From Leptolyngbyaceae cyanobacterium C42_A2020_001 (GTDB lineage: Bacteria > Cyanobacteriota > Cyanobacteriia > Leptolyngbyales > Leptolyngbyaceae): DNA of 38,793 nt. How positions within the stretch are numbered: position 1 is the stretch's first letter; each line of letters starts with the position of its first letter. The notes under the pieces are model-generated. The model saw only the letters and a program-made list of their open reading frames with translations. It was not told the origin of the DNA and did not search any database. The stretch spans positions 1 through 38,793 of the forward strand of contig JACYLN010000008.1 in NCBI GenBank assembly GCA_015272515.1. The letters run 5' to 3'. Made by a program: the position numbers and the translations under genes. Below, piece by piece: positions 157 to 21,479 of the stretch.

Positions 157-1593
157 CTATGATGCTAGATGTCCTACTAATGGTTGCCGCTGGCGTAATG
201 GAATTTCGATCCAAAACTCAGCACCCAAGCCTGGTTCTGATACACACCGAAGGGTTCCTCTGTGTTTTTCAGCAATAATTTGATAGCTGATGGATAACCC
301 TAGTCCTGTTCCTTTCCCAACTGGCTTTGTGGTGAAGAATGGGTCAAACAATCTAGCTCTAACTGCTTCTGTCATTCCAGGTCCATTATCTGCAATGCAG
401 ATTGCAACATGGCTGTTATGATGAACTGCCGTTTTAATGGTGATTTTGCTAGGATTTCGTCGAATTTCCATCAGCGATCGCTGGCTATCATAGCTATGCA
501 GCGCATCGATTGCATTACTCAAAAGGTTCATAAATACTTGATTGATCTGCCCCACAAAACATTCAACTAACGGTAGCTTGCCATACTGCTTAACGACTTC
601 AATTGGGGGATTTTCTGCCCTTGATTTTAATCGATTTTGTAAAATCAAGAGTGTGCTGTCTATCCCTTCATGAATATCAACAGCTTTCATTTCTGCCTCA
701 TCTAAACGAGAAAAATTTCTTAAAGACAGCACAATCTGACGGATGCGATCGGCTCCTACCTTCATCGAAGAAAGCAACTTAGGTAAGTCTTCCAACAGAA
801 AATCCAAATCAATCGTTTCGATATGTTTTTCGATTTCTAAATACGGCTCAGGATAAAAACGCCTGTAAAGATTTAATAGGTCTAACAAATCTTTAGTATA
901 TTCATTGGCGTGTTCTAAATTGCCATAAATAAAATTCACAGGATTGTTGATTTCGTGAGCGATTCCAGCCACTAACTGACCCAAACTCGACATTTTCTCA
1001 GTCTGAATCAATTGTGATTGAGTCTGTTGTAACTCGTTCAGTGCTTGCTTAAGTTTTGTGGCTTGGGCTTCGGCAATTTCAGCTAGGTTTTCTTTAATTT
1101 GTAATGCACTTCGTAGCTGAGCTTGTTGCTGTCTTAATTCCTCCGTTAACTTCTTTGTGTCGATCAGTGCTGTGTTTTTAGCTTGTAGTAAAAAGAGAAA
1201 ATCAACAATTGGATCATGAGTTGCAAAGTCTTTTAGTTTAATTCCTAAAGGTCCCAGGCTGGCGGTATCAGTAACCCAGGGTGATCCCAGAAAAAAGATC
1301 ACATCCTCGTCCTCAACGTACATCATCTGTCCCTTTAGTTGCATCTCATTATGACGAGATTCCAGGATGAAAAGAGAGCGAGACTGCTGCTTAATTAGAT
1401 CAAACTCAAACTCGATTCTGGGACGATTGATGTGAAAATGCTGATTGATTTGACTACCAACTAATTCTGTAAGAGTAATTCGCCGCAGAACTTCCCCAGC
1501 TTGTAAAATTTCGCGATCGCGGTTGAAGACAAAATGAAACGGAAACGCGCTGGAAAATAGCTGCGGCGGTAAACAAAGATGTGGAGAAACCAT
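157..1593 (-). CDS. H-NOX-associated (HNOBA) sensor histidine kinase
   Basis: A 478-residue cytoplasmic histidine kinase with no membrane segment. Residues about 12-135 form an HNOBA (haem-NO-binding-associated) domain, recognisable by FPFHFVFNRDREIL, the LKGQMMYV strand and the SPWVTD motif. A coiled coil follows (about 138-200), then a HisKA dimerisation helix with phospho-acceptor His213 in GIAHEINNP. The HATPase domain has an N box (NQVFMNLLSNAIDAL), G1 (DNGPGM) and G2 (GKGTGLGLS). HNOBA kinases are the usual partners of stand-alone H-NOX proteins, whose NO-bound form controls autophosphorylation. The ATG at 1593 lies only 2 bp after the H-NOX stop codon, so the two are surely co-transcribed and probably translationally coupled. 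No response regulator is seen beside it, so the phosphotransfer target is unknown. The catalytic core closely resembles that of the multi-PAS kinase at 22855-26031. Confidence 0.93.
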   Translation of the reverse strand: MVSPHLCLPPQLFSSAFPFHFVFNRDREILQAGEVLRRITLTELVGSQINQHFHINRPRIEFEFDLIKQQSRSLFILESRHNEMQLKGQMMYVEDEDVIFFLGSPWVTDTASLGPLGIKLKDFATHDPIVDFLFLLQAKNTALIDTKKLTEELRQQQAQLRSALQIKENLAEIAEAQATKLKQALNELQQTQSQLIQTEKMSSLGQLVAGIAHEINNPVNFIYGNLEHANEYTKDLLDLLNLYRRFYPEPYLEIEKHIETIDLDFLLEDLPKLLSSMKVGADRIRQIVLSLRNFSRLDEAEMKAVDIHEGIDSTLLILQNRLKSRAENPPIEVVKQYGKLPLVECFVGQINQVFMNLLSNAIDALHSYDSQRSLMEIRRNPSKITIKTAVHHNSHVAICIADNGPGMTEAVRARLFDPFFTTKPVGKGTGLGLSISYQIIAEKHRGTLRCVSEPGLGAEFWIEIPLRQRQPLVGHLAS

Positions 1594-1595
1594 GA

Positions 1596-2150
1596 TTATT
1601 CGGGTTGTTTATACTGAATTGAAAATTCGTCGTGTTCTGCACCCTCCTCTCGACTCTGTGTTTGAGTTACTTCAACCTCTGTATTAAATCGGGTTCCTAA
1701 TCCTTTGACTAACCCCACCACCATTGGAGCTAGCCCCTCTCGATTGGAGTGATAGTGAAGTTTGAGAGATTCTTCTGTTTGATCAGTACAATCAAACGAT
1801 GGAGGGTTGAGCTGGGGAAAAATCACTCCAACACGGGCGTGTAAATTATCCAAATTCTCCAAAAACTCCGGCAGATTGTCACCGCTCATTTCCATCATTT
1901 CGCCATAGCCTTCTTGAGCGGTGTATTTTACCCAAAACTCTCCAAACGCCTGCATAATTTCACAAGCAGATAACCCCAATACCTCGCTGGCAGCTTTGAC
2001 TAGTTTATGAGTAACATCATCCGGATAACCTTCCATACTGATGAAACTGTCAACCTCTAGGTCTGCTTTTTGCTTAATTTCTTTCCAGGTTTGTTCGCCA
2101 AAGTGTTTGCACACCATGTCTTCGATCGCTTTATTAACCAGTCCGTACAT
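1596..2150 (-). CDS. H-NOX haem nitric-oxide/oxygen sensor protein
   Basis: A 184-residue stand-alone H-NOX protein. The start [12 protein letters not shown] is the classic H-NOX N terminus. His104 in NLHARVG is the expected proximal haem ligand, and Tyr133, Ser135 and Arg137 form the YxSxR motif that holds the haem propionates. The distal Tyr that gives O2 affinity in the Thermoanaerobacter protein lies five residues after that Arg; here the position is Pro142, so I infer an NO-selective sensor that does not bind O2. The ATG at 2150 is preferred over an upstream in-frame TTG (2162) because GGAG stands six bases before it. Two HNOBA effectors flank it, the kinase 2 bp downstream and the c-di-GMP enzyme upstream. 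A MITE-like element now lies between this gene and the upstream effector. Confidence 0.95.
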
Positions 2151-2189
2151 ATCATTCTCCAATGTAATACCGTCAGGCTTTTATCATTA

Positions 2190-2329
2190 GAGGGTGGTTG
2201 AGAAGTGCCAGATGTTTTGATTCGTCCCCTTAAAACCTTCGATTTTGAAGGATTGCCAAATTGGTATTCCCCATTGGGAGCGCTAGGGGGGACTGTTTGA
2301 GCCGCAATTAGCACTTTTCAAACATCCTC
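2190..2329. mobile_element. MITE-like element, 140 bp, TTA target duplication
   Basis: The ends are imperfect terminal inverted repeats of 19 bp: GAGGGTGGTTGAGAAGTGC at 2190-2208, and at 2311-2329 the complement of GAGGATGTTTGAAAAGTGC (4 mismatches). TTA occurs immediately outside both ends (2187-2189 and 2330-2332), the target duplication expected of IS5-family elements that begin with GAG and duplicate TNA. No transposase is encoded. The interior has palindromic C- and G-rich stretches. It sits between the GGDEF-EAL gene and the H-NOX gene, so it may alter read-through or supply a processing or termination hairpin. Confidence 0.75.
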
Positions 2330-2371
2330 TTAAGCCTAAAATTCCCACTTTTCTTTTAATGGCAACACAAT

Positions 2372-5143
2372 TTAAACAATAAATTGTGTTGCAAGTAGAT
2401 TTTTTGCTCTCTTGCTGTCTAAAGGTTTAGAAAAGAAATATCCTTGTCCACTTTCACATTGCAATTCCTTTAAGTGGGCGAGTTGTTCGGCAGTTTCCAC
2501 TCCTTCTGCTACCGCATCCATGCCTAAACTGCGGGCAAGCATCACCACTGTCCGAATGATTTCTAATTTCTCACTGTCTGTATCTACGCTCTGAATGAAT
2601 GAGCGATCGATTTTAAGCGTGCTGACTGGAAAGCGGTTGAGATAGCTTAAAGATGAATAACCTGTTCCAAAATCATCCATCGACAATTGAATTCCGAGTG
2701 CTTGAAGCTGCAACAGACTGGCAGTCGTAGACTCTACATTATCCATCAAAATACTTTCGGTTATTTCCAGCTTTAAACTATCAGCAGCTAACCCCGTTTC
2801 TTGCAAAATTTGCTGGATTTGCGTTGTAAAGTTTGGCTGTGCAAATTGTTTACTAGAAATGTTGACGTTGATTGTTAAGGTATGTGCTGAAGGAAATTCC
2901 TGCTGCCATTGGCGCATTTGTTGACAAGCTTCCTGCAATACCCAATCTCCTAAAGGAATAATCAATCCAGTCTCTTCTGCAACTGGAATAAACTCACCTG
3001 GCGCTATTAACCCCCGCTCTGGATGGTGCCAGCGAACAAGTGCCTCAAATCCAGTAATTTGTTGATTCTTTAGAGACACAATGGGTTGGTAATGTAGATG
3101 AAACTCATGTCGTTCAAGTGCTCGCCGCAAATCGGTTTCCAGTTGCAGAAGGGTGACTGCCCGCACATGCATAGCAGTGTCAAAGATTTGATACTGAGCC
3201 TTGCCTTTTCCTTTGGCATGGAACATGGCGGTGTCTGCATCCCGCAGTAAATCTTGGGGTTGTTCATACCCAGTTGTGCTGAGGGCTATACCAACGCTCG
3301 TACTGGCGAAGATCTCATGTCTACCCAGCTTAAATGGCAGCGTCAACTCTTTTTGCAATCGCTCGGCAATTTGGGCTGCATACTGACTGTCTTGAATCTC
3401 TTCTAAAAGGATTGCAAACTCGTCACCACCCAGGCGTGCAATTAAATCTGTTCGCCGCAGGGATGCTTCCAGCCTGCGAGAAATGGCAATCAGCAGTTGA
3501 TCGCCAACCATGTGTCCGAGACTATCGTTGATGACTTTAAACCGATCCAGATCCAGGAAAAGAACCGCGAACAGATAATCTTGCTGCTGCTTGCTGCGAG
3601 CGATCGCCTGCTCCAATCGATCAATAAACAGAGCACGGTTTGCTAAACCTGTTAACCCATCGTGCAGTGCATCATGGAGTAGCTGTTCTTCAACTCGCTT
3701 GCGCTCAGAAATATCGCGACAAACAATCACGCCCCCTTTCGGAGTCCCATTTTTGTCTTTGAGTGGTCTTCCGGTCACTGTGACCCAAATGCCATCGGGT
3801 GCCTGAGCATGACGCACAAACATTTCCACATCGGTGACTTCCTCCCCTCGAATTGATCGCTCTAAGGGCAGATCCTCTGTGTTGAATGGGGTCACGCGAT
3901 CGGCGCGAAAGAGATTCATGGTTTGCGAACAGTGATTGGCGACCAAGTGAGTTGCTTGACTGCCAAACATCCGCTCGGCTGCCGGGTTGAAGACTAGAAA
4001 ATTTCGATTCTCATCCGCAACAATTACCGCATCGCCCATGCTATCTAGAATTGACTTCAAGCTTTCGGAAATCTCCGTTTGCTTTACTAATGCTGCTTCA
4101 ATTTGTTTTCGTTGAATAAATTGCCCAATCTTGATGCCGATGTCTGCCATCATCTCTTGCAAACTATCATCTGGTTCGCAGGGTCTATGGCTGAAAAACT
4201 CAAATACCCCAATCACCTCAGTGCCATTTTGAATTGGTAATGCAAAACCACCTTGTAACCGGGCAGCGATCGCGTGTAGTCTGCGGGGTGAGTTGGGATC
4301 TTTGGTGATGTCATCAGTCCAGATTGGTTCGCGATCGTGCCAAACGCACCCCGCCAAACCAACTCCCATCGGGAGTGTCAGCATCCGATTCAATAGCTCA
4401 AATTCTTTGAAATGCTCAGGCAGTGCCGTCCAAACCCCATGACACTTCAGTTCTTTGGCAGATGGATCTACCATCCACAGCACACCCACCTGCCAGTCTA
4501 AGGCAGCGCAGATTGCTTCTAACAGTTTGATGGCAGCGTCGCTAAATGTGGACGATTCTGCAAGGATATGCGTTACCGCATAGAGTGCTGCTAATTTGCG
4601 GTTAGCTGTGCGGAGTTCTGCCCGTTGCTCGGTCAATTCATCGGTTAATTTCTTGGCATCCGACAAGGCAGTATTTTGTGCTTGTAATAGAAACAGAAAA
4701 TCAACGACTGGATCATGAATTGCAAAATCGCTGAGGGTTAAGCCATAGGATTTGAGTGATGCAATATCTGTAACCCAGGGAGAGCAGAGAAAGAAGATAA
4801 CTTCTGTTTGCTCAACATAAATCATCTGTCCCTTGAGCTTCATGCCATTGTGCAGGGACTCTAGCAAGAAAAGCGATCGCGATCGCTTACAAATTTGTTC
4901 AAATTCAATTTGAATATTAGGTCGAACAACTTGAAAGTGTTTCTCAAGTTGGCTTCCAACGATCAATTCAGGATAGATTTGTTGTAAAACTTCCCCAATT
5001 TGAAGAATTTCTTGATTTCGATTAAATACTAAATGAAAAGGAAAAACCTCTGTAAATAAATCTGGTATTAATGTGAAGCAGGATATTGATTTCACATCTT
5101 TAAAAGAGAAAAGATTGGGTAAAGCCGTTGTTGCACCTTCCAT
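2372..5143 (-). CDS. HNOBA-GAF-PAS-GGDEF-EAL c-di-GMP synthase/phosphodiesterase
   Basis: About 923 residues, soluble. In order: an HNOBA domain (about 20-160) very similar to that of the kinase at 157-1593, a GAF domain (about 185-340), a PAS domain (about 360-480), a GGDEF domain (about 485-650) and an EAL domain (about 660-915). The cyclase site RLGGDEF is intact, and an RRTD inhibitory I-site lies five residues before it. The EAL domain keeps EALVRW, DDFGTGYSS and the later KIDRSF and AEGVE motifs, so both activities look possible. The HNOBA domain predicts control by the neighbouring H-NOX protein, that is, NO-dependent c-di-GMP turnover. The ATG at 5143 is chosen because AGGAG precedes it by four bases; an in-frame GTG at 5158 has no such site. 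Which activity dominates cannot be read from sequence. Confidence 0.92.
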   Translation of the reverse strand: MEGATTALPNLFSFKDVKSISCFTLIPDLFTEVFPFHLVFNRNQEILQIGEVLQQIYPELIVGSQLEKHFQVVRPNIQIEFEQICKRSRSLFLLESLHNGMKLKGQMIYVEQTEVIFFLCSPWVTDIASLKSYGLTLSDFAIHDPVVDFLFLLQAQNTALSDAKKLTDELTEQRAELRTANRKLAALYAVTHILAESSTFSDAAIKLLEAICAALDWQVGVLWMVDPSAKELKCHGVWTALPEHFKEFELLNRMLTLPMGVGLAGCVWHDREPIWTDDITKDPNSPRRLHAIAARLQGGFALPIQNGTEVIGVFEFFSHRPCEPDDSLQEMMADIGIKIGQFIQRKQIEAALVKQTEISESLKSILDSMGDAVIVADENRNFLVFNPAAERMFGSQATHLVANHCSQTMNLFRADRVTPFNTEDLPLERSIRGEEVTDVEMFVRHAQAPDGIWVTVTGRPLKDKNGTPKGGVIVCRDISERKRVEEQLLHDALHDGLTGLANRALFIDRLEQAIARSKQQQDYLFAVLFLDLDRFKVINDSLGHMVGDQLLIAISRRLEASLRRTDLIARLGGDEFAILLEEIQDSQYAAQIAERLQKELTLPFKLGRHEIFASTSVGIALSTTGYEQPQDLLRDADTAMFHAKGKGKAQYQIFDTAMHVRAVTLLQLETDLRRALERHEFHLHYQPIVSLKNQQITGFEALVRWHHPERGLIAPGEFIPVAEETGLIIPLGDWVLQEACQQMRQWQQEFPSAHTLTINVNISSKQFAQPNFTTQIQQILQETGLAADSLKLEITESILMDNVESTTASLLQLQALGIQLSMDDFGTGYSSLSYLNRFPVSTLKIDRSFIQSVDTDSEKLEIIRTVVMLARSLGMDAVAEGVETAEQLAHLKELQCESGQGYFFSKPLDSKRAKNLLATQFIV

Positions 5144-5206
5144 TGTTCTCCTACGCACGAGTTCACCATGATTGAAAGGTTACTTAAGAATCAAATGTTT
5201 GATATT

Positions 5207-5264: not shown

Positions 5265-5993
5265 TTAGGCTGAAACAAGCTGCCGAGAGTGACCTGCATA
5301 TGCATGTGTGGATGTTTGGCGCACAATTCCATCAAAGAAACATGCTCTTGCATTCATCGCATCAAGAATTGCCCGATTCACATCCATCGCAACTTCTGTT
5401 GTAGTAATACGAGGTTCAATCAAAGCTGCTAACTGGGCTGCATGGCTGTCATCCACATCAATATGCACATCAAAAAAGATCAATGCTTCTTTGGATAAAG
5501 CCGTTGCTCCAGCAATGCCGCGTTGAAGCTGGGAATAGAGGGTATTCACAATTCCCTCGGACGCGAAACAGACGGCTCCCAGGGCTGCCAAATAGCTATA
5601 TTGATGGGGTAAGTTCAGATAGGTGTCGATTAGATGCCGAGTTTCGGGTTCGGTTGGCAGGGATGAAAGCGTTTCGTCATCAATTCCTAATGCTCGTGTG
5701 AACTGACGAAATAGCTCAGGATGGGCAAGATTTGGATCTCCCTGCCCCATCTCGTCGAACAAGTTCTCTAAAATCACCCGTTGGGCACCTTCATCAGGAC
5801 AGCGGGATAAAATGCCAGCCAATATGCGGTTGAATTCTTTTGAGAATTTATACATCTGAACCGCCAATATCTGAACTTCTGCTAGTGTGAGCTGGGTTGT
5901 GCGGCAGCGAACTAGAAACTCGTGACTCCACAAGGGGTGGTTAGCAGTTACCTCAAGGAAGGATTGCATGACGGAAGAAGAGGGTGGTTTCAT
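5265..5993 (-). CDS. Haem-oxygenase-like diiron enzyme (iron-containing redox enzyme family)
   Basis: A 242-residue all-helical protein of the TenA/PqqC/haem-oxygenase-like superfamily. The likely metal ligands are in the order expected of the HDO (haem-oxygenase-like diiron oxygenase/oxidase) group: Glu76 in LENLFDEMG, His91, Glu146 in FASEG, and His177, Asp181 and His184 in FFDVHIDVDDSHA (HxxxDxxH). Characterised members perform N-oxygenation, C-C cleavage or desaturation of small molecules or amino acids; the substrate here cannot be named. The start ATG overlaps the stop of the upstream methyltransferase (ATGA, 5990-5993), so translation is coupled. With the Fe/2OG-type oxygenase it completes a three-gene set. 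CADD-like proteins in folate or PABA synthesis are an alternative relative. Confidence 0.85.
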   Translation of the reverse strand: MKPPSSSVMQSFLEVTANHPLWSHEFLVRCRTTQLTLAEVQILAVQMYKFSKEFNRILAGILSRCPDEGAQRVILENLFDEMGQGDPNLAHPELFRQFTRALGIDDETLSSLPTEPETRHLIDTYLNLPHQYSYLAALGAVCFASEGIVNTLYSQLQRGIAGATALSKEALIFFDVHIDVDDSHAAQLAALIEPRITTTEVAMDVNRAILDAMNARACFFDGIVRQTSTHAYAGHSRQLVSA

Positions 5994-6757
5994 CGCGTTA
6001 CCTGTACAGCTAAATGGAGTGGATAGTCAACGAGGGGTTTGAAGAACGATTGATCAAGCTCGACGTGGTTTGGTTGCACTCGTAGCTCTCGTAATGTTGG
6101 CATGGTGTTGAATCCAGCCGCTTTGAGGGCATCGAAGTAGTCTTCCAATGTTTTGTGAACGAGCTGCACATCCAGCCAAGAACCATCGCGTTTCCAAATT
6201 CGTCCTGGAAACTGGCGATCGCGCTGACTGAAGTAACCAGCTCCTTCCACCTGAAAATAAAAGGGATATTCTGCTTGCCGCATGTAAGGAAAAGCTGGAT
6301 GGGGCACGCTGAAGATAAATCGTCCTGCGGGACGCAGAATTCGAGCGACTTCTGCCATACATTGTTGAGTCTGCTCGACAGTTAGATAGTTGAACAGGAA
6401 GACGGCAACTACCAGATCGAGTTGGCGATCGCCAAATTGAGATAAATCTGTAGCACAGCCAACCTCATAGTGAATGCCGAGGCAATCTTCAGACTCCTGC
6501 GATCGAGCAGCGGTAATCATTCCCTGGGAAAGATCCATCCCAGTCACTTCCCCGGCTCCTCGGCGACGCAACTCTCGGCTGCAATACCCCTCGCCACATC
6601 CCAAATCGAGGACACGCAGTCCGGCGATCGGTTCGCATAATTCTAAGATTGCAGGACGCGCCGTAAAGTCTGAAAGTGAACTGGGTTCTCCACGAACCCA
6701 ATTTGAAGCAGTGTTGTTATATAGGTTTCTAGTTGAGTCGGTGTTCGTTGCCATCAT
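5990..6757 (-). CDS. Class I SAM-dependent methyltransferase of the oxygenase cassette
   Basis: About 255 residues. Motif I LRVLDLGCGEGYCSREL and the following acidic strand (GEVTGMDLSQGMI) define a Rossmann-fold SAM methyltransferase of the Methyltransf_11/25 type. The core continues with LDLVVAVFLFNYL and the post-motif RILRPAGRFIFSVPHPAF, similar to small-molecule and UbiE-like enzymes. No membrane segment or signal peptide is present. The start is uncertain: two ATGs at 6757 and 6754 and a TTG at 6787 are in frame, and none has a strong ribosome site. It ends in a 4-bp overlap with the diiron enzyme gene and follows the oxygenase gene by about 95 bp, so it probably methylates an intermediate shared by those two enzymes. 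The methyl acceptor is unknown. Confidence 0.88.
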   Translation of the reverse strand: MMATNTDSTRNLYNNTASNWVRGEPSSLSDFTARPAILELCEPIAGLRVLDLGCGEGYCSRELRRRGAGEVTGMDLSQGMITAARSQESEDCLGIHYEVGCATDLSQFGDRQLDLVVAVFLFNYLTVEQTQQCMAEVARILRPAGRFIFSVPHPAFPYMRQAEYPFYFQVEGAGYFSQRDRQFPGRIWKRDGSWLDVQLVHKTLEDYFDALKAAGFNTMPTLRELRVQPNHVELDQSFFKPLVDYPLHLAVQVTR

Positions 6758-6850
6758 ATTGCTTATTGATGAACAGATTTGAATCAAGGCAATGCTCTAA
6801 TTTGAGGAAATATCAACTGTGGGTTGAAAGTGCCATCCTGAAACGAGGAA

Positions 6851-7843
6851 TTAAAACAGTGGCACAGTCCGATAGCCCCTCGTGTAGAGAGGAACTGAAC
6901 CCAAATTGGTTTTTCTAGCTCTTGCCTCTTCAACAGACTCGTCAAACACAATCAGGGTATCTGTACCCACTTTGAGCCAATCCTCATAGGGCACACTCAT
7001 ATCAGTTTCAACGCCTCCACTGCTGGGAGGAACCATTGCCCGGTAAGCTTCGTTAAACTTGCGACGGAAACGAAAATCAACCGATATTCGCACCCCATCA
7101 GAAACTCGTCGCACGGTTTGATGTAGCCCACGGGCATCATTGAAGTACATAGTGCCGTGTTGCAATCTGGCGTTGTCATAAGACACTACCATTGGAATGT
7201 CTTTTCCTTCGTTAAAGTCGGACATGACTCGCATAGTCGGCAACTCCATCTCACGAGGCATTTCACCTGCTTCGATGGTGATGTTGTTGATGTCGCCAAA
7301 CAAGGGCAGAACCACGACTGTTGCATCGGGTACAACCCCTGCCCAAACATCGCTGTGGCGTTTGGTACTGGTAAAAGGTAAGCGCAGGGCATCGGGGTTC
7401 ATTGTGCCATAAACGATCCGCAGGTTGACGGGCAAATCAACTGCCTCAATCAGGTCATTGGCTCCCAATTGGCGAAAGGCGTTAGCAACGCTTTTTTGAA
7501 AAGCGTTGAATTCCAGAATGTGTTCACGTTTTGGCATCAATAACCCAGTGCCCATGTAGTTGGGCAGTGTGCCTTTTGCTTCTAACAGGCGTTCTAACAT
7601 TTCTGCTTCAGGCAGTACGATAGGACTGTTTAAGCAGGCTGAGACATAGGCCGCGGCGGCGGATTGAATTTGCTGAAATAGCTCAAGTTTAAGGGTGTGT
7701 TCAAAGAGCAGGCGGTAGTCATGGCGGGTGGCGATTCTGGATGCTAACTCGTTAAAGAGTTGGTCACCTAATTGAGAGAATGCGATCGCTGGTTCATCTG
7801 CTTTGGAATGAACCTGTAGACGTTCGATCAGTCCTTCAACCAT
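6851..7843 (-). CDS. Putative Fe(II)/2-oxoglutarate-dependent oxygenase
   Basis: A 330-residue protein I cannot place in a named family. It carries the cupin-type facial triad of Fe/2OG enzymes: His163-x-Asp165 in KRHSDVWAG, a distal His241 in GLHQTVRR, and Arg252-x-Ser254 (RIS), 11 residues later, at the usual 2-oxoglutarate-binding position. The N-terminal 140 residues are helical without motifs I recognise. The ATG at 7843 has AGGAG eight bases upstream and is preferred to an upstream in-frame GTG at 7894. It is the first gene of the cassette with the methyltransferase and diiron enzyme. Hydroxylation, desaturation or ring formation on a small metabolite is the reasonable expectation. The assignment rests on motif spacing only, so a non-2OG double-stranded-beta-helix protein is possible. 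Confidence 0.65.
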   Translation of the reverse strand: MVEGLIERLQVHSKADEPAIAFSQLGDQLFNELASRIATRHDYRLLFEHTLKLELFQQIQSAAAAYVSACLNSPIVLPEAEMLERLLEAKGTLPNYMGTGLLMPKREHILEFNAFQKSVANAFRQLGANDLIEAVDLPVNLRIVYGTMNPDALRLPFTSTKRHSDVWAGVVPDATVVVLPLFGDINNITIEAGEMPREMELPTMRVMSDFNEGKDIPMVVSYDNARLQHGTMYFNDARGLHQTVRRVSDGVRISVDFRFRRKFNEAYRAMVPPSSGGVETDMSVPYEDWLKVGTDTLIVFDESVEEARARKTNLGSVPLYTRGYRTVPLF

Positions 7844-8440
7844 TCTTTCTGCTCCTGATTGCTTACAATAATTAGCTGACTTCATTCCATGCACATTAAG
7901 TAGGGAACTCCATGACTCCGTCAGAATCTATGCCTCAATGATTAGCTGATGGTTGATTCTTGAAGAATTAAATGAATTACTTAAATGCATCAATGTTTTG
8001 TTGATCTTGTTTCCGATTGAGATTTGAACTATGTCTTCAAGTTAGTGACACAGTGGATATAAGTTTGTTTTAACAGTGAATTTTTCCTAATACAACTGTT
8101 GAAAATACAGAGGGTGCTTAAATAAAATTAATAAAAATATCCTTTCTGGAAACCCCTACGGCTCTGGTTAAACAGATGATTTCGACGGTTGAGAACGTGT
8201 TTTGTGAGCAATTTAATTTGTCTTCTACATCATTTCTTTGAAAGGGCAATCGTTCTCTTAATAGGGAATTTATTTCGCTCCCCGTATATCTAACGAATCA
8301 AATATAGGAACTTTCAGCAATTTGCATGATGAGATTTCAGCGATTTAACTGAGCGTAGATCAGTACGCCTTAATTTCAGTCAAATAGCCGAAATTAACCC
8401 GAATTTGGGTATGAAGTGTTCTCGTGGGGTTGTGTTTCGC
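7844..8440. other. AT-rich non-coding region upstream of the oxygenase cassette
   Basis: About 600 bp with no convincing gene on either strand and no HIP1 octamer. It is clearly AT-richer than the flanking genes and presumably holds the promoter for the minus-strand cassette, since moaE on the other side converges toward it only with its 3' end. I see A/T tracts and short imperfect inverted repeats (for example around 8360-8410) but no recognisable riboswitch, tRNA or known small RNA. A small RNA or an eroded gene cannot be excluded. Confidence 0.5.
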
Positions 8441-16372: not shown

Positions 16373-17896
16373 CTAAACACGAGTGGGAAGGGCGGCAACT
16401 CGCTGCCTGGATGGCTTTCGCCCAGTGAGCAGGTAGGCTGCCATTTCACCTTTCCCTTTCACCTGAATTGCGCCCCGGGCTTGGAAGGTGTAGCAATGCT
16501 TGAGGCGCTCGTAGGTAGCAGCCGTAACCTGTATTTCGCCTGGCAATCCGTGGGATTCCATGCGGCTGGCAACATTGACGGTATCGCCCCAGAGGTCATA
16601 AATGAATTTTTTGGTGCCAATCACGCCAGCAATCACGGGGCCAGAGTTGATGCCAATCCGAATGTCGCAGTCGTGCCCCCGTTCCAGGCTAAACATGGTG
16701 ATTTCGCCCAGCATATCCAGCGCCATCTCAGCGATCGCTTCGGCATGATCCTCACGGGGATTGGGCAAACCACCCACCACCATATAGGCATCGCCAATGG
16801 TTTTGATTTTCTCCAGCCCGTGTTTTTCCGTGAGGCGATCGAACCGGGAAAAAATTTCGTTGAGTAAGGAAATCAATTGTGTTGGCGGAATTTTTTCCGA
16901 TAACTTGGTGAAGTTGACCAGATCGGCAAACAACACCGTTGCTTCGGCAAACCCTTCGGCAATGCTGCTATGCCCTTCTTTCAATTGTTCGGCGATCGGT
17001 TCCGGCAGGATGTTAAGCAACAACTGTTCTGATTTTTCCTGCTCAACCGTGAGTTGTTCGTTTGCCCGACTCAGTTGCGAAGTGCGTTCAATCACCCGCA
17101 ATTCTAAGTCTTTAGAGGTTTGGCGCAGTTTGGTAATCACCAGCGCAATCCCCATTAATGCCAGTAACAACAAGCCCGACAACATTGTAAACGTGCCTTG
17201 CAATCCGGCGCGGGTTTGGGCGATGAAGCTATCCAGTGGTCGAGTAATTTCCAGTACACCGCGCACATCCCCCTCTTTCCAATCTTTTTTAGGGCTGCTG
17301 GGATGGGTGTTGTGGCACTCCACGCAACTCGGTTTCATGATGTCGGCTTCAGCATACCGGAGCGATCGCCGCCCCTGAAAATCTTCCACCCGTACAAAGC
17401 GCTCTTTGGGATTTTGCCGCAGAAAGGCGATCGCGGCTGCCTCGAAATCATCTTTGGGACCACCTTCTGCTTTGCGCCAGGGAAACGGCAGATCGCTATA
17501 TAACCGCACCGACATCCCCGGATTTTGCTGGCTAATCGATTTACTCAGCTCGATTAAATAAGTTGCAGGCAGGGGAATTGCCCCTGGTTGAGTGATGTAG
17601 TCGTGGGTAACACTAATGCCGTTAACCTGGGCGCGGCTCACCGCATTCGTACTGTAAAGGGTGCGGGCTTCCTTAATAGCTTGAGCATAGAGGGCAGAGC
17701 TTTGTACCGCTTGCGACTGAATCAGGTCAGACGAGAGGCGCGACATATTGTAAAGGGCACCCGCTAACCCTGCCACAAAGAGAACTGCTAAGAGGAGAAT
17801 CGTCCGGCGGTTCAGAAGGTGAACCAGAAAATTCAGGATTGGACGCAGGATCGGTAGCTTGGAACGCTTTCTAGAACTGGAGGTAGCCAGATTCAT
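16373..17896 (-). CDS. Membrane adenylate cyclase with periplasmic c-haem (DUF3365/Tll0287-like) sensor
   Basis: About 507 residues. Membrane helix 1 (about 32-48) and helix 2 (about 234-254) bracket a periplasmic DUF3365 domain with a CVECH haem-c motif (about 191-195). A coiled coil and a class III nucleotide cyclase domain follow. The catalytic set is complete: metal Asp in LFADLVNF and GDAYM, adenine-selecting Lys in KIKTIG and Asp in IYDLWG, and transition-state Asn and Arg in VNVASR. This predicts cAMP rather than cGMP synthesis. The sensor domain suggests control by redox state or a haem ligand, which is inference. The ATG at 17896 has GGAG seven bases upstream; an in-frame TTG at 17965 would add 23 residues. 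It is divergent from a cyclic-nucleotide-binding protein gene. Confidence 0.92.
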   Translation of the reverse strand: MNLATSSSRKRSKLPILRPILNFLVHLLNRRTILLLAVLFVAGLAGALYNMSRLSSDLIQSQAVQSSALYAQAIKEARTLYSTNAVSRAQVNGISVTHDYITQPGAIPLPATYLIELSKSISQQNPGMSVRLYSDLPFPWRKAEGGPKDDFEAAAIAFLRQNPKERFVRVEDFQGRRSLRYAEADIMKPSCVECHNTHPSSPKKDWKEGDVRGVLEITRPLDSFIAQTRAGLQGTFTMLSGLLLLALMGIALVITKLRQTSKDLELRVIERTSQLSRANEQLTVEQEKSEQLLLNILPEPIAEQLKEGHSSIAEGFAEATVLFADLVNFTKLSEKIPPTQLISLLNEIFSRFDRLTEKHGLEKIKTIGDAYMVVGGLPNPREDHAEAIAEMALDMLGEITMFSLERGHDCDIRIGINSGPVIAGVIGTKKFIYDLWGDTVNVASRMESHGLPGEIQVTAATYERLKHCYTFQARGAIQVKGKGEMAAYLLTGRKPSRQRVAALPTRV

Positions 17897-18170: not shown

Positions 18171-21100
18171 ATGTTAGGAGCGCATAAGCTTTCACAAGTG
18201 TCTGAGCGTCAGATGCACCTAGTGCGATGGGTGCTAACGGTTGGCTGGATCGCGATGATTGGCTCGTTATTTTGGGACCCTATCTCACCCTACCTTACCG
18301 ATCCGACTGCGGTGTTCAGTCCGTTGCAGTTCGATCCGGATCAGTGTGTGCAGGTGCAGGGGCAATGCTTGCCACAAAAACCGTATTCAATCGGGCTGTT
18401 TGTGTTCTGGTCACTGGTGATTCCTGCTTCTATTTTGATTTTGCTGGTGTTTGGGCATGAAACGTGGCGGCGGATTTGCCCAATGTCGTTTTTATCGCAA
18501 ATTCCAAGAGCGTTGGGAATTCAGCGTAAACGCAAAGTGGAGTCGCGTAATGGTGGGGGGGCAACGCGCTATGAAATGGTGAAAATCCGTAAAGATTCTT
18601 GGCTTGGTAAGTATCATTTATATGTGCAGTTTGGCTTGTTAACGCTGGGGTTAGCGGCTCGATTACTGTTTATTAATTCCAATGCGATCGCGCTGGGGAT
18701 TTTCTTAGTAGCAACCATTATGGCGGCGATCGTGGTGGGATTTCTGTACGAAGGTAAAAGTTGGTGTCAGTACTTCTGCCCAATGGCTCCGGTACAACTG
18801 GTTTTTAATGGTCCGCGCGGGTTGATGGGAACTGAAGCCCATCAAGGTCCGCGCCAAACTGTAACCCAATCCATGTGTCGCACGGTAGATAAAGAAGGCA
18901 ATGAAAAAAGTGCCTGTGTGGGGTGTCAGTCTCCCTGTATTGATATTGATGCCGAACGCAATTACTGGGAAGTCGCTTCCAAACCGGGTCGTCGCTTTGT
19001 GCAGTATGGCTATGTTGGCTTGTTACTTGGTTTCTTCATTTATTATTTCTTGTATGCAGGTAGCTTTGATTACTTGTTCTCTGGAGCCTGGTTGCGAGAA
19101 GAAAATCAGCTTGCGACTTTATTAAGTCCTGGATTTTATCTTGCTGATCGGGCAATTCCGATTCCAAAGGTTGTTGCAGTTCCGTTAACATTGGTTGGTT
19201 TTGTGGTGTTCAGTTATGGTGCCTTAACACTGATTGAAAAAGATTATCGCAAGTCTCTTAAACGGCTCCAGGGAACAGTTTCTAGCCAGCAAGCTACGCA
19301 TACAATTTTCTCCATTTGTACGTTTCTTTGCTTCAATCTCTTCTTCTTCTTTGTCAGTCGATCGCTACTCTCGACTTTCCCGTTTCCGGTACATTTGCTG
19401 TTTAATGGCTTTATTGTGCTGGTCAGTACCTTATGGCTTTCCAGAACCCTCAACCGCAGTTCAGAACTGTATACCCGTGAAAGTCTGGCGAATACGCTAC
19501 GTCGGCAATTAGGCAAACTCACCATCGATTTCTCTCGCTTTTTAGAAGGGCGATCGATGGAAGATCTAAAAGCGGAAGAAGTTTACGTATTGGCGAAAGT
19601 ACTACCCGGTTTCAACCAGGAGCAGAGTTTGCAGGTGTATAAGGGCGTATTGCGAGAAACATTGGAACAGGGCAATGCGGATTCTGCTTCCAGCCTGGAA
19701 GTGTTGCGTCCAATTCGGCAGGAATTGAACATTAAGGATGAAGATCACTTTGCTGTGTTGACGGAATTGAGCAGCGTGGAACCAGATTTGCTCGACCCGA
19801 AGAAGCGCCGCACTCGCGAAAATCAGTTACGGATTGAAAGTTATCGCCAGGCGTTGGCTTCCATGCTGCTAGATTTGCTGGATAGTGGCATGTCGTTGCA
19901 GGAAGCGATGCAGCGGCAGCGCAAACAAATTCAGTTCCTCAAACTGGAATACGGCATGACCAGCGAAGAAGAAGAGGAGGTGTTGAACCAGATTTTAGCG
20001 GGTGAGAAAAGTACGATTTTGCGAAAAGCGGATACGTTACTGGAACAAATGCGGCAGTTGGCAGTTCGCGATCGCGTGTTGGATGATCACGTCCTGGCTG
20101 CTCAAACTCCAGTCTTTAAGTTTCTACGCTTAACCGCAGTGCAACAAAAACAGCAGATTTTAACCAAACAAATGTTGGGTTTACTAGAAGTGCTGGGCGA
20201 CGCGACGGAATCCCTGGAACTGGCAGGAACGACTCGGGCCCTGGCGATCGCGGTTCTGCCAGACATTCTTCAAGCGGTAGACGGGGCACAAACCTGGAAA
20301 ACACGCCTCAAACCAGAGGTGCTGGCAGTGTTAGAAGGAGAAACGCCCACCCCAACTTCGTTAGAAAATGGTCAGTTAAGCCAGTGGGCACCCGATTTAT
20401 CCACCGCTGCCCTTTCTGAATTGAAAGCAACGGATTCTGGTTCACCTGATTTAATTTCGCCTGATTCAAGCAGCACCCTTGCGCTGGAAACAGTTCTAGA
20501 TGAATGGCTCTATGAACTCGATCCGTTGATTCAAGCGCTAGCGCTGTATGGATTGAATGTGCTCAACCCGCAAGTAGCGATCGCAAAAGCCGACCAAGTT
20601 CTCAATTCCCGTAATCAAGGGCACTGGCTGATTCAGGAAACCGCCGAAACTGTGCTGAGTCAAAATCAGGAGCAAATTGACAACGAGGTGCAAACCCTGA
20701 TTGCCCAAATAACGCTGCGCGGTAAGGCGGAGAAGCAAACCTTTCAGCAACCCGTGGTGCGGGTGGGCAGTAGTCCCGTGAATGACATTGTGTTGCCTAG
20801 CCCAGCGGTGGCAAAGCATCACGCCATCTTTTACCTGGATGGGGAAGATTACAGCGTGTTGGATTTGGGTAGCACCGATCGCGGCTTGTATGTGGGCAAC
20901 AAACATTTGAGCAGCGATCGCGATCGTCTGGTACAAGGAGAACGCATCAAATTTGGTGAATCCGCTGACCCCAGCATCACCGTTTATTGGGACAAACAAC
21001 CCCCGCTCAAAAAAGCCCCCACTGAAACATTGGGCACGCTGGATAAAGTCATGCTGCTGTACGAAAGCCGCTTTTTCCGTTCCCTCAACCCCGATGCGCT

Positions 21101-21479
21101 GATTGAACTGGGGCGAGATGCGATCGTCAAAATTTACCCCCGTGGCGATCGCATGTGTCAGGCAGGCGATCCCTCCGATTCCATTCTGCTGCTAATCGAC
21201 GGCACTGCCGAAGTGGTGATTCAGCGCGGCGATGCCCAGCAAACCGTGGGCATGGTGAACGTGGGCGAAACCATCGGTGAAATGGGCGTACTCACTCGAC
21301 AAAAGCGCTCTGCGTCGGTAATTTCTGTATCCGATTATTGCCGCGCCCTCGTCATCCAAGCCGATCGCTTCGATACGGTTTTGCGCCAAGATCCAGAAGT
21401 TTCCAGAAATCTGCTTGTGGTGCTCAGTAGCCGCCTGCAAAGCATGACCAGCAAAATTAAAGCGACAGCAAAGGCATAG
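18171..21479 (+). CDS. Membrane Fe-S protein with FHA and cyclic-nucleotide-binding domains
   Basis: A 1102-residue multidomain protein. Several membrane helices in the first 420 residues carry a NapH/NosR/CcoG-like core with WCQYFCP (Cys199, Cys203) and a second cluster site of Cys236, Cys249, Cys252 and Cys256 (CVGCQSPC), suggesting Fe-S centres. A soluble, mostly helical region without recognised motifs spans about 430-850. An FHA domain (about 862-935, with RVGSSPVNDIVL and the SVLDLGSTD strand) precedes a C-terminal CNMP domain (about 957-1085). Its phosphate-binding cassette is intact: GEMGVL with Glu1037 and RSA with Arg1046, so cAMP binding is plausible. The divergent adenylate cyclase, 274 bp away, suggests a signal source. 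Phosphothreonine recognition by FHA is also expected. Function is unknown. Confidence 0.85.
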   Translation: MLGAHKLSQVSERQMHLVRWVLTVGWIAMIGSLFWDPISPYLTDPTAVFSPLQFDPDQCVQVQGQCLPQKPYSIGLFVFWSLVIPASILILLVFGHETWRRICPMSFLSQIPRALGIQRKRKVESRNGGGATRYEMVKIRKDSWLGKYHLYVQFGLLTLGLAARLLFINSNAIALGIFLVATIMAAIVVGFLYEGKSWCQYFCPMAPVQLVFNGPRGLMGTEAHQGPRQTVTQSMCRTVDKEGNEKSACVGCQSPCIDIDAERNYWEVASKPGRRFVQYGYVGLLLGFFIYYFLYAGSFDYLFSGAWLREENQLATLLSPGFYLADRAIPIPKVVAVPLTLVGFVVFSYGALTLIEKDYRKSLKRLQGTVSSQQATHTIFSICTFLCFNLFFFFVSRSLLSTFPFPVHLLFNGFIVLVSTLWLSRTLNRSSELYTRESLANTLRRQLGKLTIDFSRFLEGRSMEDLKAEEVYVLAKVLPGFNQEQSLQVYKGVLRETLEQGNADSASSLEVLRPIRQELNIKDEDHFAVLTELSSVEPDLLDPKKRRTRENQLRIESYRQALASMLLDLLDSGMSLQEAMQRQRKQIQFLKLEYGMTSEEEEEVLNQILAGEKSTILRKADTLLEQMRQLAVRDRVLDDHVLAAQTPVFKFLRLTAVQQKQQILTKQMLGLLEVLGDATESLELAGTTRALAIAVLPDILQAVDGAQTWKTRLKPEVLAVLEGETPTPTSLENGQLSQWAPDLSTAALSELKATDSGSPDLISPDSSSTLALETVLDEWLYELDPLIQALALYGLNVLNPQVAIAKADQVLNSRNQGHWLIQETAETVLSQNQEQIDNEVQTLIAQITLRGKAEKQTFQQPVVRVGSSPVNDIVLPSPAVAKHHAIFYLDGEDYSVLDLGSTDRGLYVGNKHLSSDRDRLVQGERIKFGESADPSITVYWDKQPPLKKAPTETLGTLDKVMLLYESRFFRSLNPDALIELGRDAIVKIYPRGDRMCQAGDPSDSILLLIDGTAEVVIQRGDAQQTVGMVNVGETIGEMGVLTRQKRSASVISVSDYCRALVIQADRFDTVLRQDPEVSRNLLVVLSSRLQSMTSKIKATAKA

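Follow-up and report, generated by a model that had tools for sequence, protein, structure and literature searches.

A conserved oxygenase, methyltransferase and diiron protein set adjoining H-NOX in filamentous cyanobacteria: a proposed small-metabolite pathway, probably under H-NOX control

Introduction

Which chemistry is performed by three adjoining genes for a non-haem iron oxygenase, a methyltransferase and a diiron protein, and why are they nearly always found beside a gas sensor? These questions are raised by positions 5,265 to 7,843 of contig JACYLN010000008.1 of Leptolyngbyaceae cyanobacterium C42_A2020_001 (GenBank assembly GCA_015272515.1), analysed here within a stretch of 38,793 nucleotides (positions 1 to 38,793, referred to below as the window). 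The initial annotation of this DNA described the three genes, called the trio here, as an oxidative tailoring cassette. The oxidative trio is real, but its description as a self-standing cassette is not supported: it is embedded with a pair of genes for the gas sensor H-NOX (haem NO/O2-type sensor) and proteins carrying the H-NOX-associated domain HNOBA, located at 157-5158, which that annotation overlooked. The trio probably supplies the enzymes of a conserved module linked to H-NOX, an oxidative and methylating pathway for a small metabolite that is likely controlled by H-NOX. Here, the evidence for this proposal is presented and the alternatives are weighed.

The Three Enzymes

The trio consists of the following genes, listed in their order along the minus strand.

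6851..7843, minus strand: OX, predicted Fe(II)/2-oxoglutarate (Fe/2OG)-type oxygenase, 330 residues from ATG
5990..6787, minus strand: MT, predicted class I S-adenosylmethionine (SAM)-dependent methyltransferase, 265 residues from TTG
5265..5993, minus strand: HDO, predicted haem-oxygenase-like diiron oxidase/oxygenase, 242 residues

The three co-directional open reading frames (ORFs) reported initially, the last two overlapping by four bases, were confirmed on the minus strand, OX and MT being 63 bases apart and the overlap of MT and HDO lying at 5990-5993. All gene calls are longest-ORF calls. The ATG at 7843 is favoured as the start of OX because homology begins near it, an alternative GTG at 7894 (347 residues) being possible, while the likelier starts of MT are the in-frame ATGs at 6757 and 6754, the homologue alignments beginning at about residue 12. 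MT followed by a co-directional HDO was observed in 56 of the 70 loci whose gene order was read, with an overlap of exactly four bases in 47, and OX and MT were divergent in 42 of these loci and co-directional in eight, including the window. Across the collected loci, own genome excluded, matches of more than 150 residues were 64-87% (OX), 65-87% (MT) and 61-90% (HDO) identical to the window proteins. This coupling of MT and HDO and the conservation of the proteins are far beyond chance. In 33 aligned divergent OX/MT intergenic regions (L017-L055; L and G numbers designate loci and genomes), conserved AT-rich blocks were seen, one of them near the OX side, which may be a shared promoter or operator; footprinting of the same 33 regions gave no clear operator.

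OX matched no Pfam family (none of the 2OG-oxygenase ones up to E 1), no NCBIfam family, and no PDB sequence, a profile search included. Its AlphaFold2 model is of middling confidence (predicted local distance difference test, pLDDT, 73; predicted template modelling score, pTM, 0.79). When this model was searched with Foldseek, the best match was EvdO1 (E 1.9e-05), KanJ, SnoN and P3H1 were also found, and the best 50 rows were all Fe/2OG-type enzymes or proteins, with template modelling (TM) scores of 0.28-0.36 of the query in those listed. Alignment with VIA-align left 3dkq, PtlH, PHD2, EctD, BesD/HalA and MysH tied at Z 8.6-9.7. The HxD...H...RxS pattern noticed initially corresponds to H163-x-D165, H241, R252 and S254 in the ATG numbering, invariant in 54 of 54 homologues, a set that, like the 56 homologues of HDO, contains some genomes twice. 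Since the model is weak at residues 150-166, which include H163 and D165 (pLDDT <50), and the TM-scores are low, the fold assignment rests on the structure matches together with the invariant HxD, H, R and S. On these grounds OX is predicted to be an Fe/2OG oxygenase with the double-stranded beta-helix fold proposed for it at the outset.

MT matched PF13649 (E 2.3e-22), PF08241 (E 1.1e-20) and other methyltransferase families above cut-off, and by sequence is a class I SAM-dependent methyltransferase with no telling relative. Its substrate could not be read from PDB similarity, the best match, ToxA (E 2.6e-16), being one among 63 generic matches. A mobile origin of the trio was also considered and rejected: OX had no match at E 0.01 in plasmid or phage collections, for MT, neither phages (at 1e-20) nor viral contigs gave a match, and PHROGs returned nothing for OX or HDO.

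HDO belongs to PF14518 (E 5.1e-31; 108.3 bits against a cut-off of 28.9), and its AlphaFold2 model reached a pLDDT of 89. VIA-align placed this model nearest to CADD (Z 28.2; 1.7 Å over 213 residues), followed by HrmI (25.5), PqqC (25.1), BesC (23.8), FlcD (23.5) and UndA (22.5). The HxxxDxxH pattern pointed out initially is part of a ligand set, E81, H91, E146 and H177-xxx-D181-xx-H184, that is invariant in 56 of 56 homologues, and E142 of CADD aligns with E146. From its modelled fold and ligand set, HDO is predicted to be a haem-oxygenase-like diiron enzyme, and the classes named for all three enzymes in the initial annotation are supported. Position 55 of HDO, where residue spacing would tentatively place the extra glutamate (seventh ligand) of SznF, is an asparagine. 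Membership of two characterized families was tried and rejected. HDO aligned end to end with the BesC (4-chloro-allylglycine synthase) family NF042919 (E 4.8e-16), at 59 bits against an equivalog cut-off of 500; and its profile matched SznF only at E 0.24-0.26 over partial length, the window protein having 242 residues and no cupin. The three-His/three-carboxylate set characterizes the HDO superfamily (PMC13108848).

A second HDO is encoded in the same genome (L114, 8144-8902; contig C124, ~17200-17859). With 290.9 bits for TIGR04305 (cut-off 200) it is a true member of the CADD family, and by eye the FY and TTK positions are retained in it; it is likely a cyanobacterial p-aminobenzoate (pABA) synthase.

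Distribution of the Trio and Its Linkage With H-NOX

The distribution of the trio was followed in two overlapping sets of genomes, at least five genomes being present in both. The species scan covered one genome per species in 84,980 species by peptide patterns, which catch close relatives only, and the class sample covered 388 genomes, whose short contigs can hide neighbours (in G182, OX and MT-HDO are on two contigs). The scan returned 42 loci with relatives of OX, all 42 of them cyanobacterial. The full trio was present in 39, which bears out the co-occurrence expected of a genuine unit, and was contiguous in 38, a small called ORF lying between the genes in L049; the three loci without it are L023, where OX is at the contig start, L047 and L057. 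In the class sample, OX was found in 14 genomes, MT in 18 (E<=1e-50) and an HDO orthologue in 17 (E<1e-100), with 26 genomes giving any HDO match at E<=1e-20. Many filamentous cyanobacteria have inherited the three genes as a set, which in nearly every case adjoins H-NOX and its kinase; Chlorogloeopsis fritschii PCC 6912 (L036) and Nostoc punctiforme NIES-2108 (L042) are examples of carriers.

In the window, the adjoining genes are arranged downstream of HDO.

2372..5158, minus strand: HNOBA-GAF-PAS-GGDEF-EAL protein, a cyclic di-GMP (c-di-GMP) enzyme with an H-NOX-associated domain, 928 residues
1596..2162, minus strand: H-NOX haem NO/O2-type sensor, 188 residues from TTG (PF07700, E 6.7e-59)
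157..1593, minus strand: HNOBA sensor histidine kinase, 478 residues (PF07701, PF00512, PF02518)

An internal ATG at 2150 is the likelier start of H-NOX, and the kinase gene begins two bases past the end of the H-NOX gene. The YxSxR haem motif is present in the window H-NOX and in 87 of the 88 H-NOX proteins examined. The gene for the HNOBA-GGDEF-EAL protein lies between HDO and H-NOX in seven of the 70 loci, the window included. Clustering of the neighbours in the 70 loci showed that H-NOX and HNOBA proteins form the only clusters common to unrelated lineages, and in the 39 full-trio loci of the species scan the distance of H-NOX from HDO was one gene (37 loci) or two genes (the other two).

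H-NOX was found in 47 of the 388 class genomes, at 50 places, and gene order was read at all of them. MT and HDO stood in the same block at 17 places, a remnant at one (G105) and an HDO-cupin fusion at one (G115), with none of these at the other 31. Within the 17 blocks, OX was present in 12, on another contig in one (G182), and a TauD-family protein was present in four. Conversely, all 17 genomes with an HDO orthologue carry it in one block with H-NOX, a linkage that was counted per genome and not as independent events, so that its hypergeometric probability of 1.4e-17 ignores kinship; sorted by their flanks, the 17 genomes form ten groups, among which L117 is only a short contig. On the H-NOX tree, which has 48 rows, omits two of the 50 places (fragments) and contains one very long branch (L162), the trio label requires nine changes (bootstrap 8-9), five of them forced by starred branches. 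With about nine label changes, the link between H-NOX and the trio has survived repeated gain or loss.

Several further observations were made at these places. In L154 (G191) and L169 (G190), H-NOX and the kinase keep the outer neighbours of trio-bearing relatives with no trace of the trio between, forming natural 'empty' sites. The fusion of G115 (L111, 1303-5424) is divergent beside H-NOX and an HNOBA kinase, so that HDO proteins of two kinds are linked to H-NOX; comparable HDO-cupin fusions, with no H-NOX nearby, occur in L109, L110 and L112. Farther along the window, an ORF of 1102 residues (18171-21479, plus strand) has, by eye, membrane, FHA-like and cyclic-nucleotide-binding-like parts and Cys motifs of the iron-sulphur type.

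Replacement, Decay and a Relative Outside Cyanobacteria

OX is absent from G188, G195, G222 and G229, which all belong to one genus, and a TauD-family protein follows HDO there, the protein in L105 matching PF02668 with E 1.2e-29. Of 20 genomes tested, five have TauD of the replacement kind, and no genome with OX is among these five. This replacement by a second Fe/2OG family, recognized by sequence, is the best argument that OX performs Fe/2OG chemistry. A substrate could not be derived from it: among solved chains, FrbJ, 7n7v, gamma-butyrobetaine dioxygenase and TmpA come closest, and the NCBIfam matches are far below cut-off.

Decay of the trio was seen at several places. In L047, MT, HDO and H-NOX have been lost and the OX frame has two in-frame stops; in L057, H-NOX and the kinase are kept while only a 3' fragment of OX is left and MT and HDO are gone; and in G105, MT has been lost and HDO is reduced to a C-terminal piece. 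The ruin of OX in the first two cases speaks for the joint module proposed below. L023 and both G182 contigs end too early for decay to be judged.

Outside cyanobacteria, a plasmid of the alphaproteobacterium Indioceanicola profundi (NZ_CP030127.1; L170, 8213-11928) encodes a protein that shares 51% identity with MT over 255 positions. The order there is an HDO (24% identical to the window HDO; PF14518, E 1.4e-24), the MT orthologue, a 452-residue protein and a 280-residue protein; the latter two match no Pfam family, and the 280-residue one has HxD...H by eye. An MT orthologue beside another HDO points to a chemical partnership between MT and HDO themselves. The stretch is flanked by flagellar-hook-like and sugar-aminotransferase-like ORFs, and PLSDB lists no gene there.

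A Proposed Pathway and Its Alternatives

Taken as one functional unit for small-molecule chemistry with no assignable product, an idea of the initial annotation that the present data support, the trio would act as follows. MT, an Fe/2OG oxygenase (OX, or TauD in other lineages) and HDO would together turn a small metabolite, probably derived from or resembling an amino acid, into a methylated and oxidized product that may act outside the enzymes producing it. The Fe/2OG enzyme would likely hydroxylate a C-H bond, and HDO would likely catalyse C-C cleavage, desaturation or N-oxygenation. That the substrate may be a primary metabolite or a free amino acid, as suggested initially, is what the HDO family would lead one to expect by analogy, its enzymes known so far acting mostly on fatty or amino acids (PMC13108848). 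An Fe/2OG enzyme and a methyltransferase beside HDO, with no scaffold gene recurring nearby, are most simply explained by a small metabolite that undergoes three steps. Neighbour clustering of the loci gave no recurrent transporter beside the trio, as might be expected if the product were diffusible or internal. Nitric oxide (NO) or another haem-binding gas, acting through H-NOX, would most likely set when the pathway is used; control by H-NOX is preferred because H-NOX persists without the trio, while the HDO orthologue is never away from H-NOX in the sample.

A number of observations weigh against this proposal. At 31 of the 50 places with H-NOX the trio is missing, which means that this sensor also serves other purposes. 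Where HDO and H-NOX are direct co-directional neighbours, 72-414 bases lie between them, and the TauD lineages have MT and H-NOX pointing apart at a distance of ~960 bases, so that co-transcription cannot be assumed. In the fifth TauD genome (G190), the order is MT-TauD-HDO, with an HDO of another clade and far from its H-NOX. The OX of G105 retains an open frame of 313 residues despite the loss of MT and most of HDO, with one TAG near the start of the matched stretch; whether it is dead is doubtful. At the Indioceanicola locus, no H-NOX was seen on reading its ORFs.

Four other explanations have been considered. It is rather unlikely, in our estimate, that the trio is a BesD/BesC-like pathway, with Fe/2OG oxidation of a lysine- or ornithine-like amino acid, C-C cleavage by HDO and methylation, whose place beside H-NOX is an inherited order of no regulatory meaning. 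HDO does align with BesC from end to end (NF042919, E 4.8e-16; Z 23.8), and the proteins matching OX in fold include BesD and its lysine hydroxylase/halogenase relatives (Z ~9), but the Z of BesD is tied with those of PHD2, PtlH, EctD and PhyH-type proteins and is not discriminating, and a linkage that persists over about nine changes and nine or ten flank groups is poorly explained by plain inherited order. A tailoring cassette for a specialized metabolite, with the larger scaffold made elsewhere in the genome, is an unlikely explanation as well. The patchy distribution (17 of 388 genomes) would suit it, and yet the 70 loci show no recurrent scaffold-making gene beside the trio, only H-NOX and HNOBA cross unrelated lineages, and the apcE/A/B-sized neighbours in Nostocales look like ordinary shared gene order. 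Among the window ORFs listed, no genes for non-ribosomal peptide synthetases, polyketide synthases or ribosomally synthesized and post-translationally modified peptides were noticed, no systematic search for them having been made.

The adjoining H-NOX might instead read what the trio makes. In a SznF-like route, MT would methylate an amino acid, HDO would N-oxygenate it, and the mononuclear iron enzyme would rearrange or fragment it, freeing NO or an N-nitroso compound; the trio would then be an NO-synthase-independent source of a ligand for the H-NOX/HNOBA pair, be it NO, nitroxyl, an N-nitroso compound or some other small molecule that binds haem, and so a self-made signal circuit. Such a circuit would account for H-NOX neighbouring the HDO orthologue in 17 of 17 genomes; the HDO domain and mononuclear-iron cupin of SznF act on methylarginine (PMC10849742 and PMC13108848), an HDO-cupin fusion adjoins H-NOX in G115, the HDO model resembles the N-oxygenase HrmI (Z 25.5) no less than it does BesC (Z 23.8), and the NO synthase family PF02898 was not found in the own genome. 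Still, we consider it quite unlikely: the HDO profile matches SznF at only E 0.24-0.26 and over part of the length, SznF is not among the best 60 of 92 rows for the HDO-cupin profile (which proves no absence), the window has no cupin, and H-NOX often occurs without the trio. HDO also has the six-ligand set, presumably without the extra glutamate reported for SznF (PMC13108848). Finally, a self-sacrificing CADD-type pABA synthase, with the trio serving folate synthesis, would be suggested by CADD being the nearest solved relative of HDO (E 6e-15; Z 28.2). Tyr27 and Lys152 are the sacrificial residues of CADD (PMC11965152), but the first is replaced by Leu27 in 56 of 56 homologues and the second corresponds to position 156, which is L in 49 and I in seven of the 56; TIGR04305 gives 93.1 bits against a cut-off of 200, and the own genome holds another HDO at 290.9. 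With both sacrificial residues absent, this role was ruled out and has next to no probability.

If H-NOX control of the small-metabolite pathway is correct, the trio as its regulated output would extend the reach of H-NOX from biofilm and c-di-GMP control to metabolism of a new class; should the sensor instead bind the product as its ligand, a gas signal would be made in a new way. The trio is a concrete, deletable metabolic partner for H-NOX and the first handle on what the sensor may control, and the orphan OX family, which has no Pfam entry, gains a context. H-NOX proteins of Nostoc serve as study models for the NO receptor domain of humans (PMC9510103, PMC9247194), while no task for H-NOX in cyanobacteria was found described in the literature searched, where the locus tags of a Nostoc H-NOX gave no match either. 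No description of an H-NOX-linked oxygenase/methyltransferase unit was found in full-text literature, a coverage outside which most subscription papers lie, and its novelty is provisional.

Comparison With Known Systems

Parts of the trio resemble several characterized systems. In BesD/BesC (beta-ethynylserine-type biosynthesis), as in the trio, an Fe/2OG-fold enzyme is paired with an HDO of the CADD/BesC type on small molecules. The motif of the BesD halogenase is HxG, whereas OX has HxD and showed no sequence relationship with BesD in any search, and the trio unit adds a methyltransferase and a gas sensor. SznE is a methyltransferase. SznE and SznF, which are responsible for N-nitrosation in streptozotocin, likewise combine a methyltransferase, an HDO and a mononuclear non-haem iron enzyme (PMC10849742), but the trio differs in its separate genes, its Fe/2OG fold in place of a cupin and its distant HDO (E ~0.25). 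CADD/PabS is nearest to HDO in both fold and sequence, the HDO of the trio being without the sacrificial Tyr and Lys.

The bacterial H-NOX signalling pairs provide the closest parallel for the remainder of the block. A histidine kinase or c-di-GMP enzyme is the usual partner of H-NOX (PMC9500659), and the window likewise has H-NOX followed by an HNOBA kinase, together with a GGDEF-EAL protein in its clade. In contrast to these pairs, the block in the window also holds the conserved trio with its putative oxidative pathway.

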